Positions 15,054-27,953 of a stretch of DNA of 64,000 nt are shown in pieces. How positions within the stretch are numbered: the first letter of the stretch is position 1; every line of letters starts with the position of its first letter. Source of the DNA: Tabrizicola sp. (GTDB lineage Bacteria; Pseudomonadota; Alphaproteobacteria; Rhodobacterales; Rhodobacteraceae); contig NZ_JALHQD010000002.1 of the NCBI RefSeq assembly GCF_022842145.1, positions 248,001 through 312,000 of the forward strand, given 5' to 3'. The notes beneath the pieces are model-generated. The model ran no database searches. It saw only the letters and a list, made by a program, of their open reading frames with translations, and was not told the DNA's origin. Position numbers and translations under genes: made by a program.

Positions 15054-15071
15054 TGTCAACTTGATATGACA
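15054..15071. promoter_or_regulatory. PpsR/CrtJ operator, crtD side of the crtD-crtE intergenic
   Basis: An exact TGT-N12-ACA, 15 bases upstream of the crtD ATG. It is the first of a tandem pair separated by 6 bases. Confidence 0.78.
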
Positions 15072-23116: not shown

Positions 23117-23965
23117 ATGGCACTGCTCAGCTTCGAACGAAAATACCGCGTGCCGGGGGGCACGCTGATCGGGGGCAATCTATTCGACTTTTGGGTCGGC
23201 CCCTTCTATGTCGGGTTCTTCGGGGTCCTGACCTTCTTCTTCGCCGCGCTTGGCACCATGCTGATCCTGTATGGCGCCGTGCTGCAAGGCACCTGGAACC
23301 CCTGGCTTATCTCGATCAACCCGCCACCCGTGGAAATGGGCTTGGCGATGGCGCCGCTTCGCGAGGGCGGGCTTTGGCAGATCATCACGATCTGCGCCAC
23401 CGGAGCCTTCGTGGCCTGGGCCCTGCGTGAGGTCGAAATCTGCCGCAAGCTTGGCATCGGCTACCACGTGCCCTTCGCCTTCGGTGTCGCGATCTTCGCC
23501 TATGTCACCCTGGTGGTGATCCGCCCGGTTCTGATGGGCTCCTGGGGCTATGCCTTTCCCTACGGGATCTGGACGCACCTCGATTGGGTGTCGAACACGG
23601 GCTACACCTACGGCAACTTCCACTACAATCCGGCGCACATGATCGCGGTGAGCTTCTTCTTCACCACGGCCCTGGCCCTGTCGCTGCATGGCGCGCTGAT
23701 CCTGTCGGCGGCAAACCCTGAAAAGGGCAAGGAAATGCGGACGCCCGACCACGAGGACACCTATTTCCGTGACCTGATCGGCTATTCGGTCGGCACGCTG
23801 GGCATCCACCGCGTCGGCCTGTTGCTGGCTCTGAACGCCGGGTTCTGGTCGGCGGTCTGCATCGTGATCTCGGGCACGATCTGGTTCGACCAGTGGGTCG
23901 TCTGGTGGGACTGGTGGCTGCAGCTGCCCTGGTGGGCTGGCATCGAGGGAGGCGTAAATGGCTGA
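23117..23965 (+). CDS. pufL: photosynthetic reaction centre L subunit
   Basis: 282 residues, five membrane helices. Pigment and iron ligands are at the standard sites (numbering with Met1): H154 and H174 for bacteriochlorophylls, H191 and H231 for the non-haem iron, and E213 and the DHED region for proton delivery to QB. The N-terminus [19 protein letters not shown] is typical. It overlaps pufM by 8 bases. With PufM and PuhA (outside this window) it carries out light-driven quinone reduction. Confidence 0.98.
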
Positions 23966-24881
23966 GTATCAGAACATCTTCACCCAGGTGCAGGTGCGTG
24001 GCGCCCCCGAAATGGGAATGACCGAAAACGTCGAGTTGTCCAACCGGACCCGGGGGGCCACCTTCTCGAACCTGGCCGGCTGGATTGGCAACGCCCAGCT
24101 TGGACCCGTGTACCTTGGCACGATGGGAGTGATCTCGCTGGCCGCCGGTGTGGCGTGGTTCGTCACTGTCGGGCTTTGGTACTGGCATCTTGCGGGCTTC
24201 AACCCGGCCGTGTTCCTGCGCGACCTCTTCTGGTTCAGCCTGGAACCCCCGGCTGAAGAATACGGCCTGGGCTTCGCGCCTCTGGCCGAAGGAGGGGTCT
24301 GGATCATCGCCAGCTTCTTCCTTCTGATCAGCGTCTGTGCCTGGTGGGTCCGCACCTACCTGCGGGCGCAGGCCCTGGGGATGGGCAAGCACGTCAGCTG
24401 GGCCTTCGCCTCGGCGATCTGGCTTTTCCTGGTGCTGGGCCTGTTCCGTCCGATCCTGATGGGCAGCTGGAGCCACGCCGTGCCTTACGGCATCTTCAGC
24501 CACCTCGACTGGACCAACAACTTCTCGCTGCAATACGGCAACCTGTTCTACAACCCCTTCCACGCGCTGAGCATCGTCTTCCTTTACGGATCGGCACTGC
24601 TCTTTGCGATGCACGGGGCGACGATCCTGGCCGTCAGCCGCTTTGGCGGCGACCGGGAGCTTGAGCAGATCGCCGACCGCGGCACGGCGTCCGAACGGGC
24701 GGCTCTCTTCTGGCGCTGGACCATGGGGTTCAACGCGACGATGGAAGGGATCCACCGCTGGGCCTGGTGGTTTGCCGTGCTGGTCACTCTGACCGGCGGT
24801 ATCGGCATCCTGCTGACGGGCACGGTCGTCGACAACTGGTACGTCTGGGCACAAGAGCACGGCTACGCGCCGCTCGACTAA
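23958..24881 (+). CDS. pufM: photosynthetic reaction centre M subunit
   Basis: 307 residues. H182 and H202 (bacteriochlorophylls), H219, H266 and E234 (non-haem iron) fall at exactly the R. sphaeroides numbers. Five helices are visible, and the C-terminus ends HGYAPLD without an extension for a tetrahaem cytochrome. The next gene is pufX, not pufC. The start overlaps pufL, favouring equimolar synthesis. Confidence 0.98.
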
Positions 24882-24891
24882 GGAGGTCGAA

Positions 24892-25122
24892 ATGCCGAAC
24901 GACTATTTCAACGAGACCAAGCAGACCAACCTGGTATTCTGGAGCCTTGGTCAGATGCTGAAGGGGGCGGGTTACGCCGCCGCCTTCGTCATCGCCATCT
25001 CGCTGTTCGTCTGGGCGATCTACCTGGTCGGGCTCTTGCTGCCCGAGGAAAGCCGTCAGACGCCTTCGCCTTACGGTTCGCTTGAGACGCCGCTGGTGGC
25101 CGAGGGTCACGACCTGGCCTGA
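24892..25122 (+). CDS. pufX: PufX, LH1-reaction centre core organising protein
   Basis: 76 residues with a perfect Shine-Dalgarno AAGGAGGTCGAA. It has one membrane helix (about residues 25-50, GAGYAAAFVIAISLFVWAIY) preceded by the Gly-containing segment GQMLKGAG and followed by a flexible tail. PufX opens the LH1 ring for quinone exchange and, in some species, dimerises cores. It occurs only in the Rhodobacter group, so it is the best taxonomic marker here. Confidence 0.94.
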   Translation: MPNDYFNETKQTNLVFWSLGQMLKGAGYAAAFVIAISLFVWAIYLVGLLLPEESRQTPSPYGSLETPLVAEGHDLA

Positions 25123-25126
25123 AACC

Positions 25127-25157
25127 GTCGGGTCCGGAGCCAGTCTCCGGACCCGAC
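25127..25157 (+). terminator. puf operon 3' hairpin
   Basis: A perfect 13-bp stem, GTCGGGTCCGGAG (25127-25139) and CTCCGGACCCGAC (25145-25157), loop CCAGT, starting 4 bases after the pufX stop. There is no T-tract, so it is likely an mRNA 3' stabiliser or a leaky terminator that lets some transcripts reach dxs. Confidence 0.75.
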
Positions 25158-25238
25158 AAGCCGATCCTGACCCTCCCACGGGTCCGGATGTCGGGACCTC
25201 CGGGCCCCGGTTCCCTTCCTGTCGGACGACAGGCACTT

Positions 25239-25267
25239 GTGCCGTGTGGCATCAACCCACACGGCAC
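25239..25267 (+). promoter_or_regulatory. hairpin in the dxs leader
   Basis: A perfect 11-bp stem, GTGCCGTGTGG (25239-25249) and CCACACGGCAC (25257-25267), loop CATCAAC, followed by CCTTT. It ends 23 bases before the dxs ATG. It could terminate puf transcripts or gate dxs translation. Confidence 0.55.
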
Positions 25268-25290
25268 CCTTTGCCCGAAAGGAGCAAACC

Positions 25291-27231
25291 ATGACTGCGC
25301 CCGGTGCCAATCCCGCCTTTGCCGAAAAACCGATGCTAGACCGTGTCGCCAGCCCCGCTGATCTCCGGGCGCTTGCGGACCACGACTTGCCCCAGCTGGC
25401 CGACGAACTCCGCCGCGAGGTGATCGAGGTGGTCAGCCAGACCGGTGGACACCTGGGATCATCGCTGGGTGTGGTCGAACTGACCGTGGCGTTGCATGCG
25501 GTCTTCGATACCCCGCGCGACAAGCTGATCTGGGACGTGGGGCACCAGTGCTATCCGCACAAGATCCTGACCGGGCGCCGCCACCGGATGCTGACGCTGC
25601 GCCAGGCCGATGGCCTCAGCGGTTTCACCAAGCGGTCGGAAAGCGACTATGACCCCTTCGGCGCGGCGCATTCCTCCACCTCGATTTCCGCGGCCCTTGG
25701 TTTCGCAATGGCGCGCGAGATGGGACAGCCCGTGGGCGATACTGTCGCGGTGATCGGCGATGGCGCGATCACGGCGGGCATGGCCTATGAGGCGATGAAC
25801 CACGCGGGCCATCTGGGCAAGCGGCTGTTCGTAATCCTGAACGACAACGACATGTCCATCGCCCCGCCCGTCGGCGCGATGCAGACCTATCTGAATTCCA
25901 TCGCCGGCAAGGGACCTCTGGCCACCTTGAAGGCGATTGCCGAGGGGCTGGAGGATCACCTTCCCGGCCCCCTGCGCGAAGGTGCACGGCGGGCGCGTGA
26001 ACTGGTCAGCGACCGGCCCGGTGGCGTGACCCTGTTCGAGAAGCTGGGCTTTTCCTACTTCGGCCCGGTGAACGGCCATGATGTGCCGATGCTCTTGCAT
26101 GCGCTGCGGTCGATGCGGGCCCATGCCGACGGCCCGGTCCTGTTGCATGTGGTGACGAAGAAGGGCAACGGCTATGGCCCGGCGGAAGGCGCGGACGACA
26201 AGTATCATGGCGTCGCGAAGTTCGACATCGCCACCGGCAAGCAGCACAAGACGCCTGCGAATGCTCCGAACTACACGGCAGTCTTCGGCCAGACCCTGAC
26301 GGATGAGGCCGCACGCGATCCGCGCATCGTGGCGATCACCGCGGCGATGCCGGGGGGGACCGGCCTTGACGTGATGCAGAAACGCTTTCCGGCGCGGGTG
26401 TTCGACGTCGGCATCGCCGAGCAGCATGGGGTGACCTTCGCCGCCGGTCTGGCGGCAGGGGGGATGCGGCCCTTCTGCGCGATCTACTCCAGCTTCCTGC
26501 AACGCGGCTACGACCAGATCATCCACGATGTCGCCCTGCAGAACCTGCCGGTGCGCTTTGCCATCGACCGGGCGGGCCTGGTCGGACAGGACGGCGCGAC
26601 CCATGCCGGGGCCTTCGACGTGATGTTCCTGGCGAACCTGCCGAACATGACGGTCATGGCGGCGGGGGACGAAGCGGACCTTGTGCACATGATCGCGACC
26701 GCTGCTGTCCACGACCACGGCCCCATCGCCCTGCGCTATCCGCGCGGCGAGGGGATGGGTGTAGCGATGCCCGACCGCGGCGTCCCGCTGGAGATCGGCA
26801 AGGGCCGCGTGCTGCGCGAGGGCACCGATGTCGCGATCCTGTCTTTCGGCGCGCAACTTTCCGAGGCACTGGCGGCCGCGACGATCCTGGAAGCGGAAGG
26901 CATCTCGGCCACCGTGGCCGATGCCCGGTTTGCCAAGCCCCTGGATGTGGCGCTGATCGACCGGCTTTACCGCGAGCACCGCTGCCTCATCACCGTCGAG
27001 CAGGGATCGACCGGCGGCTTCGGCGCGATGGTCCTGCATCATCTGGCGATGAGCGGTCAGCTGGACCGTGGCGCGCCGGTCCGGACCATGACGCTGCCGG
27101 ACCGCTTCATTGATCAGGCCAGCCCGACTCAGATGTATGCCTGGGCGGGACTGGCCGCTGCGGATATCGCCGCAATGGTCCGGTCCGCAGTTGCACCCGC
27201 CCTTGGTGCGCAGGTTGTCAGGTTGCGCTGA
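25291..27231 (+). CDS. dxs: 1-deoxy-D-xylulose-5-phosphate synthase
   Basis: 646 residues. This TPP enzyme joins pyruvate and glyceraldehyde 3-phosphate in the first step of the MEP isoprenoid pathway, feeding IPP to idi/crtE. The TPP/Mg motif [18 protein letters not shown] begins at G156 and continues to NDNDMSI. The transketolase pyrimidine domain contains [15 protein letters not shown] (D426), with a C-terminal transketolase domain. The ATG at 25291 has GAAAGGAG upstream; the longer reading from 25237 would include the leader hairpin. Placement after pufX matches Rhodobacter dxsA. Confidence 0.96.
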
Positions 27232-27233
27232 CA
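27216..27233. promoter_or_regulatory. PpsR/CrtJ-type palindrome over the dxs stop
   Basis: An exact TGT-N12-ACA lying across the last dxs codons. It is in coding sequence, so chance is possible. A second copy at 27269-27286 has a single mismatch (TGT-N12-CCA), and together they precede the gene at 27345. Confidence 0.45.
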
Positions 27234-27344
27234 GTCAATTCGCCGCGGGTTCAAAAAAGCTGCAGAAGTGTAAACTTCTAGCACCATTCCGTGCAGACCG
27301 TGCTATGGTCACGCTCGGAAGGCGCTCGGGGGAGGACTGCAGCA

Positions 27345-27953
27345 GTGAAGTTCCAGCAGGTCTACGCCGTTGTAGACAGCGAGTTCCGGCTGCTCTGGGT
27401 GGGCGGAGAGTGGGATGAATTCGCTCTGCAGAATGCAGCGCAACACGCCCTTGCGAACCACGTCCTGTCCACGTCCTTGCTGGCGCACATCGCCGGCGAA
27501 GAGACGCGCGAGCTGATCGCAAGCATGGTGGGGACCGTTCTGAAGACCAAGCGGCCGCTTCGCATGGAGTATCGCTGCGATTCGCCCAATATGGCGCGGG
27601 CCTATCTTTTGACCATCCAGCCGATGAAGGATGACCGTGCGCTGATGGTCCACGACCTGAAGGATGCGTGGCATTTCTCGCCGCCGCTGAACCGGTGGAA
27701 CTACGATCCCCAAGCCCGCGACTGCAAGTGCAGCTTCTGCGGCGACATCCGCTTCGGCGTGACGCAAGAGTGGACCAGTTGCGACGATATCGGCGATCGT
27801 CATCCGGCTCTTGTATACTACGAGGTCTGCAACAGCTGTCGGGAAGCCGCGACCAAGGTGGTGGAAGACGTGCTGCGCGGCGATGAAGTCAGCCTGGCAC
27901 TGGACGACGACCGCCTTTCAGAGGTCCGTCAGGCCAGAGACCACAGCGAGTAA
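27345..27953 (+). CDS. uncharacterised PAS-like protein with a C-terminal zinc-ribbon-like domain
   Basis: 202 residues, GTG start with GGAGG nine bases upstream. Residues 1-105 look like a PAS-family sensory fold, with EFRLLWVGGEWDEFALQN, LAHIAGEETR, then YRCDSP (77-81). Residues 125-170 carry CxxC pairs C129/C132 and C162/C165 plus C127 and C146, arranged like a zinc ribbon or a redox/iron site. There is no DNA-binding or enzymatic domain I recognise, and no membrane segment. It sits just outside dxs behind PpsR-like palindromes, so a light/oxygen-linked regulatory role is possible but inferred. The end overlaps ribD by 25 bases, convergent. Confidence 0.8.
   Translation: MKFQQVYAVVDSEFRLLWVGGEWDEFALQNAAQHALANHVLSTSLLAHIAGEETRELIASMVGTVLKTKRPLRMEYRCDSPNMARAYLLTIQPMKDDRALMVHDLKDAWHFSPPLNRWNYDPQARDCKCSFCGDIRFGVTQEWTSCDDIGDRHPALVYYEVCNSCREAATKVVEDVLRGDEVSLALDDDRLSEVRQARDHSE

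Follow-up and report, generated by a model that had tools for sequence, protein, structure and literature searches.

A predicted PAS-fold protein with four conserved cysteines, encoded behind dxs, is probably an overlooked part of photosynthesis control in Rhodobacteraceae

Introduction

Rhodobacter capsulatus serves as a model of how photosynthesis genes are controlled, with much of this control attributed to CrtJ and AerR, and PAS folds, of which LOV domains are a subclass, are typical of signalling. The operator type of CrtJ is given as TGT-N12-ACA in the excerpt cited here (PMC5362033). In Dinoroseobacter shibae the LOV protein LdaP (Dshi_1135), which binds flavin mononucleotide (FMN) and needs Cys61, is an antirepressor of PpsR, and the LdaP paper describes R. 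capsulatus as having no AppA homologue (PMC10890935). Here, we describe gene X, located behind dxs in a 64,000-nucleotide stretch of Tabrizicola sp. (contig NZ_JALHQD010000002.1; the whole stretch is referred to as the window), which encodes a small protein with a predicted PAS fold and four conserved cysteines, and which is probably an overlooked part of photosynthesis control. Tentatively, and with slightly less than even confidence, we take X for a small cytoplasmic sensor, specific to phototrophs and controlled by PpsR/CrtJ, that would tune the control of photosystem genes. The observation made in an earlier note on this DNA is confirmed, and is stronger than that note held. No description of gene X was found in the open full-text literature searched, supplements being outside that search.

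Distribution of gene X

The gene and its upstream neighbours are arranged as follows:

27345..27953, + strand: gene X, a 202-residue PAS and four-cysteine protein with a GTG start (from the open reading frame, its translation and the orthologue alignment)
27331-27335, + strand: ribosome site GGAGG, 9 nt ahead of the GTG of gene X
25288..27231, + strand: dxs, directly upstream of gene X (Pfam DXP_synthase_N, E 4.7e-112)
23117..24881, + strand: pufL and pufM, upstream of dxs (PF00124 matches at G000:C2:271204-271935 and 272108-272866)

A scan of 84,980 species, one genome each, with short peptide patterns that may miss members, gave 37 X orthologues besides the window, which in a joint alignment share 39-74% identity with the window protein. 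Their records are named, among others, Tabrizicola, Rhodobacter (capsulatus, viridis and more), Gemmobacter, Pseudotabrizicola, Cypionkella, Fuscovulum and Stagnihabitans. In 22 of the 37, X immediately follows dxs, and for 20 of these 22 the stretch shows puf as well (in L019 and L036 the stretch begins too late to show puf upstream of dxs), while 15 lie between tgt and lon, and the gene order bchXYZ-puf-dxs-X is common to many genera. All 36 orthologue genomes searched contain pufL/M (the L052 genome was outside the set), the background being 122 of 295 family genomes. Within this family sample, five close X orthologues occur among the 122 genomes with puf and none among the 173 without. In the genus, X is present in 10 of 32 genomes, all 10 within the 21 that carry puf (Fisher p 0.006), a value that overstates the link since X-linked and X-less dxs fall in separate clades. 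Because 15 of the 37 orthologues are placed at tgt-lon, and those searched all have puf (14/14), the link does not need adjacency. Restriction of X orthologues to phototrophs among the genomes tested is thus well supported, and what the earlier note had named as support, that X co-occurs with puf/bch and adjoins dxs in other phototrophs, was found (36/36 and 22/37, respectively).

The history of the two sites can be followed in part from trees. In a tree of X with 16 distant relatives, which form long branches according to a program warning, the orthologues are one clade (39 rows, including one duplicate row of L038; 97/97), whose first branch is the tgt-lon pair L039/L052; the remaining 13 tgt-lon orthologues group together. 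This early branching suggests that tgt-lon is the older site and that the dxs site stems from a later move. In the dxs tree, where the X-linked loci were selected for having X, the X-linked dxs genes (window and 21 of 22 loci; L053, with dxs in two pieces, was left out) form one clade (96/92) and ten X-less genus members another (100/99); none of 28 X-less dxs genes falls inside the X-linked clade, and no loss of X was seen. The dxs-X linkage therefore probably arose once, judging from this topology, and the separate clades imply that the genus holds two photosynthesis-cluster lineages. Over 23117-27231 and the genus loci L082-L100, dxs identity to the window is 89-96% for X-linked and 76-80% for X-less copies, and PpsR scores are split alike (393-412 bits in the 10 genomes with X, 515-532 in the 6 that were searched of the 11 X-less genus genomes with puf), which looks like exchange of whole photosynthesis clusters within the genus.

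Distant relatives (~20-30% identity) are rare, being found in 10 of 295 family genomes besides the five with orthologues; among these ten, G238 has only the PAS part within a longer protein and the copy of G279 is interrupted. In a sample of the class, they occur in 7 of 289 genomes besides the match of the window itself, and four of them span the cysteine part too. The loci, read by eye, lie away from photosynthesis genes. Wide occurrence in non-phototrophs with no linkage to puf/bch, which the earlier note had named among the outcomes that would refute its reading, was not seen for orthologues, though distant relatives of the same architecture are present in genomes without puf. Such relatives could indicate that X senses stress or metal in general and merely persists in one phototrophic lineage, its link to puf being inherited and not functional. 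This reading would also fit the single clade of X-linked dxs and a distant relative such as that of G258 (locus L125), a genome lacking puf, where the neighbours are murA- and hisD-like. Against it stand the occupation of two separate chromosomal sites with all searched genomes carrying puf, and a PpsR-type palindrome conserved at fixed spacing at the dxs site and absent from all 28 sampled X-less dxs ends, and we regard it as unlikely.

Several observations on the relatives stand by themselves. Those at L125, L128, L129, L127 and L134 are found alone amid housekeeping genes, which we take to be murA- and hisD-like genes, genes like ftsZ and ftsA, and an operon of ribosomal proteins ahead of secY. 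The copy at L010 (G279) is broken by one TAG and is a possible pseudogene. L055 (Flavipsychrobacter) was dropped as an orthologue (27% identity over 95 residues, genome without puf), as were the G238 hit and a second G252 hit as relatives, both being PAS parts of long proteins. A plasmid-borne or viral origin of X was also considered and rejected, the plasmid collection giving no match and the viral contigs no relative.

PpsR (TIGR02040 above cut-off) is present in 37/37 searched genomes with X. Since it was also found in 13 of the 15 other genomes given, including G151 and G258, which lack puf, and is missing only from G004 and G134, PpsR does not single out the genomes with X. G151 and G258 (loci L125-L127) show an odd combination of PpsR above cut-off, distant X relatives and no pufL/M match. 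BLUF proteins were found in 16 of 37 genomes with X, 3 of 11 X-less genus genomes and 7 of 18 other genomes with puf (26/66 in total, 25 above cut-off, those with and without X being mixed); in the lack of an anti-correlation with BLUF, X is not simply a stand-in for AppA.

Gene X itself is a real conserved gene. In 21 pairs of seven close relatives, differences over its first 136 codons number 1010 at third, 346 at first and 211 at second codon positions, and this third-position excess means that it behaves as a protein under selection. The gene is single copy by whole-genome search and 113 bases separate it from dxs, which is preceded in the window by bchC/X/Y/Z-type genes and pufL/M; ribD and nrdR lie downstream of X on the opposite strand. 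In D. shibae, idi is listed after DXPS in the excerpt cited (PMC6052148). An alternative in-frame start at 27291 would yield 220 residues, and 27345 is favoured because the orthologues align from the same GTG or TTG codon: 36 of 38 rows (L018-L054 and the window) have GTG (14) or TTG (22) at this position and never ATG. In the other two rows the aligned codon is GTC and the start must lie upstream, and in 9 of the 36 an in-frame ATG occurs 36-120 bases upstream, leaving the start ambiguous there. The GTG and TTG starts are a weak hint of a low-abundance protein, and are not leaned on here.

The region upstream of gene X

Between dxs and X, the following elements were located:

27216..27233, + strand: distal PpsR-type palindrome TGTCAGGTTGCGCTGACA, an exact TGT-N12-ACA that overlaps the dxs stop codon
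27268..27286, + strand: proximal conserved block GTGTAAACTTC, its second half being degenerate (TGT-N12-CCA)
27269-27286, + strand: one-mismatch site TGTAAACTTCTAGCACCA, within the proximal block
27304..27309, + strand: possible -10 element TATGGT, proposed by eye from its position relative to the conserved block

The exact site and the site with a single mismatch that the earlier note had placed upstream of X are both present. Exact TGT-N12-ACA sites number 14 in the window, with 4.5 expected. A strict form, TGTMA-N8-TKACA, occurs 6 times with 0.03 expected, a count that is partly circular since the form was written after seeing the window sites, including the distal palindrome. Genome-wide (4.33 Mb) the strict form is found 16 times, compared with once for a reversed control pattern, and 8 of these 16 sites fall in one 31-kb stretch that has ppsR near one end and the distal palindrome of X at the other. 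One-mismatch sites, exact ones included, are only slightly above expectation (140 versus 120, with 140 reached in 3 of 100 shuffles), so that the second site rests on cross-species conservation and not on the motif match.

The distal palindrome is exact in 18 of 23 dxs-linked loci (the window and 17 of 22), and in none of 28 readable X-less dxs ends, which comprise 10 of 11 in the genus and 18 of 20 stretches from other genera with puf, these 20 being a subset of the 117 genomes that have puf and no close X orthologue. This control excludes L091, where the sequence breaks off within dxs, and L102 and L107, whose stretches contain no dxs, and eight genus loci with X in the same set, seven of them with the exact site, were not counted twice. 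In all 18 loci with the exact palindrome the TGTAAACTTC block lies 52-54 bp away from it (53 bp in 11 loci, 54 bp in five and 52 bp in two), corresponding to about five helical turns. At least 9 of the 11 letters of this block are kept in 18 of 23 dxs-linked loci and at least 8 in 13 of 15 tgt-lon loci, while in shuffled upstream regions at least 8 letters are reached in ~5% and at least 9 in 0.5%.

The earlier note had allowed that the exact site, lying in dxs coding sequence, might be coincidental, a caveat that can now be dropped given its presence in 18/23 dxs-linked loci, its absence from the X-less ends and its fixed spacing. More broadly, the palindrome could have arisen by chance from dxs codons, or could serve the puf-dxs transcript as an RNA hairpin or terminator, since it overlaps coding sequence and a stem of 5-6 bp is possible in many copies. 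The 28 X-less dxs ends that were read, all without the palindrome, rule out a coincidence of codons; TGT and ACA are kept despite variation in the encoded dxs tail, as is the CA past the stop. Arm pairing is broken at position 4 in 5 of 18 copies and at position 5 in 3 of 18 with the outer TGT/ACA retained, which points to a protein-binding site and not to an RNA hairpin, and the scan gave no terminator-like site, so that this explanation is extremely unlikely. The proximity to dxs could alternatively mean that X tunes isoprenoid supply via the neighbouring DXS enzyme, dxs being the immediate neighbour in 22 of 37 orthologue loci. This is very unlikely, as 15 of 37 orthologues reside at tgt-lon, away from dxs, and X has its own conserved upstream element.

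Members of the PpsR regulon have TGT-N12-ACA in the promoter region, usually twice, and X has an exact site and a degenerate conserved half-site. If TATGGT is the -10 element, the proximal half-site would cover the -35 region, as does the upper CrtJ site at bchC in the excerpt cited (PMC5362033). In Rubrivivax, according to the cited excerpt, the distance between paired sites, 8 versus 9 bp, can affect PpsR binding (PMC4452267). The gap between the two 18-bp sites at X is 35 bp, wider than these, and the site pairs at 15054 and 17173 of the window have gaps of 6 and 8 bp, narrower than at X; if both X sites bind PpsR, they would be a different arrangement from the close pairs. It is likely that PpsR/CrtJ represses X in air in the species that have the element. 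X apparently moved into the photosynthesis cluster from tgt-lon, and a full operator came to lie at the end of dxs there. Two further strong sites of this type were seen, a close pair outside the cluster at G000:C10:73567-73610, which could be a puc-type promoter, and one at 1157-1174, near the left end of the window.

Predicted fold and conserved residues

Within the protein two parts can be distinguished:

27345..27674, + strand: PAS-fold half, approximately residues 1-110 of X (AlphaFold2 model, Foldseek matches)
27729..27839, + strand: four-cysteine stretch C129-x2-C132-x29-C162-x2-C165 of X (orthologue alignment)

The earlier note had described a 202-residue open reading frame with a PAS-like N-terminal half, a CxxC...CxxC half and a GGAGG site, and all of these are as stated there, the cysteines being C129, C132, C162 and C165. 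The AlphaFold2 model, computed from 38 orthologue rows, has a mean pLDDT of 88.4 and a pTM of 0.82, and residues 5-110 follow the strand-helix-strand order of a PAS domain, followed by a knuckle-like tail. The PAS fold, an antiparallel sheet whose helices lie between its second and third strands, is seen in the model and is in line with Foldseek, where all 50 matches listed are PAS-type sensor domains by title (E 0.001-0.015; best match listed 4ghi_A, E 1e-3). That X holds a PAS fold is thus a confident prediction. By sequence, no family was above cut-off in Pfam and NCBIfam scans of the window protein: PAS_4 stays below it (E 0.084, 13.5 bits versus 23.1), NCBIfam returned only HVO_0649 at E 0.97 with TIGR02040 (PpsR) not matched, and neither a DNA-binding nor an enzyme family was matched in these scans. 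PAS_4 matches at E up to 0.1 were obtained for 10 of 38 orthologues, the best at 7.5e-4. Sequence matches to solved structures (histone deacetylases and an RNA polymerase zinc subunit, E 0.1-1) were taken as chance.

All four cysteines are kept in 38/38 orthologue rows with the spacing C-x2-C-x(27-29)-C-x2-C, and in 14/14 rows of an alignment that includes nine distant relatives. Identical in 38/38 rows are C129, C132, C162, C165, W18, W23, D79, H103, W143, H153 and P154, and C78 is identical in 37/38. Four conserved cysteines in two CxxC knuckles are what is expected of a Cys4 metal site, and a gap of 29 between the cysteine pairs is the rubredoxin spacing. RUBY_RBDX matches were found in 3/38 and Rubredoxin matches in 4/38 orthologues, all weak (best E 7e-4). 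The stretch may bind a metal, zinc being at least as likely as rubredoxin-like iron. The window protein is acidic (pI 5.2), and net charge is zero or below in 10 of 12 rows examined. A GGFGP-like motif is found at or near the end of X in the dxs-linked L028, L029, L030, L034, L035, L043, L048 and L053, and the Tabrizicola copies are without it.

These features would also suit a factor for photosystem biogenesis or repair, acting in pigment-protein assembly or in metal or Fe-S handling, which is co-regulated by PpsR without being a regulator. Its position behind bchXYZ-puf-dxs, in an order kept in many genera, and the four-cysteine stretch with weak rubredoxin-type matches in some orthologues agree with this. 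We consider it rather unlikely, since distant relatives occur in genomes without puf, no enzyme family was matched and the PAS fold points to signalling.

Proposed role

A regulatory role for X is plausible, and the steps of the sensor proposal can be set out. X would be confined to one group of Rhodobacteraceae phototrophs and would have a promoter of its own in the dxs-X interval. PpsR/CrtJ would bind the palindrome at the dxs stop together with the half-site over the -35 region, about five helical turns apart, and X would thereby be repressed in air with the rest of the photosynthesis cluster. In the protein, the PAS half may sense or dock, and the Cys4 half may bind zinc, or iron in the manner of rubredoxin-like knuckles, with a structural or redox function. 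Once made, X would most likely modulate photosystem gene control via protein-protein contact and not through DNA binding of its own, an action likened to that of LdaP and of AppA/AerR on PpsR; the net charge of zero or below in 10 of 12 rows and the absence of a DNA-binding family match in the scans agree with this. Computation supports the gene, its predicted fold, the Cys4 conservation, the confinement to phototrophs among the orthologue genomes tested and the conserved phased element, while the promoter, PpsR as the binder, the metal, the signal and the action on photosynthesis control are what we infer. That X acts on PpsR itself by such contact is possible, if somewhat unlikely.

A number of findings weigh against the sensor proposal. 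The palindrome is missing in L028, in R. capsulatus (two loci) and in R. viridis, though X adjoins dxs there, and that of L020 has one mismatch; the tgt-lon orthologues have the half-site block and no full palindrome at the matching place, and a scan found no sigma-70 consensus promoter. As the X-linked dxs genes form one clade, the counts for dxs-linked loci are not independent. At least one tgt-lon X, that of P. formosa (G135), shares a contig with pufM, 66 kb apart. Distant relatives, with G238 left out, occur in five genomes with puf (G001, G190, G250, G252, G279) and four without (G004, G134, G151, G258), so that the build of a PAS half and four cysteines is not specific to photosynthesis; no conserved neighbour was found for them in 17 loci read by eye, the exceptions being murA/hisD-like neighbours in three loci and one near-identical pair. 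In R. capsulatus both X proteins carry a net positive charge (+4 and +1; pI 9.0 and 7.9). The motif N[CS]RFL, typical of flavin-binding LOV domains, is present in 0/38 rows, so that X has no known light cofactor, and X as a LOV photoreceptor was ruled out by its absence from all 38. The suggestion of the earlier note that X may be an oxygen/redox or light-linked regulator or assembly factor co-controlled with photopigment synthesis is supported in part, through the tie to puf/bch and the conserved site, the latter being absent in R. capsulatus and R. viridis, where X still adjoins dxs.

If the proposal is true, X would be a missing control or maintenance component of photosynthesis. A more far-reaching version, which we consider unlikely, is that X represents a third type of PpsR/CrtJ partner beside those using B12 (AerR/PpaA) and flavin (AppA, LdaP): in R. 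capsulatus and its relatives the metal knuckle would read redox state or metal, and PpsR-controlled X would close a feedback loop.

Similarities to described regulators

PpsR/CrtJ resembles X in its PAS folds, the PpsR structure 4hh2_A ranking 37 among the 50 Foldseek matches listed (E 9.1e-3), and gene X carries the operator type that is bound by CrtJ in the excerpt cited (PMC5362033). It differs in size and build: PpsR open frames have ~470 residues or more, whereas X has 202, contains a single PAS fold and matches no DNA-binding family. With zinc-ribbon and rubredoxin-type knuckles, X shares the C-x2-C-x27-29-C-x2-C arrangement, and no Pfam or NCBIfam model is above cut-off for the window protein. 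AppA and AerR/PpaA, both named in the cited excerpt (PMC10890935), are sensors that act through PpsR, in which X is proposed to be similar; X matches neither the BLUF-domain type of AppA nor the B12-binding type of AerR/PpaA. LdaP, too, is small, belongs to the PAS folds in the wider sense and is a sensor acting on photosynthesis gene control in a Rhodobacteraceae phototroph, a role that X would share. It is an FMN-binding LOV protein, whereas X has no LOV motif and carries a Cys4 tail instead. By analogy, LdaP is the nearest working analogue of X.

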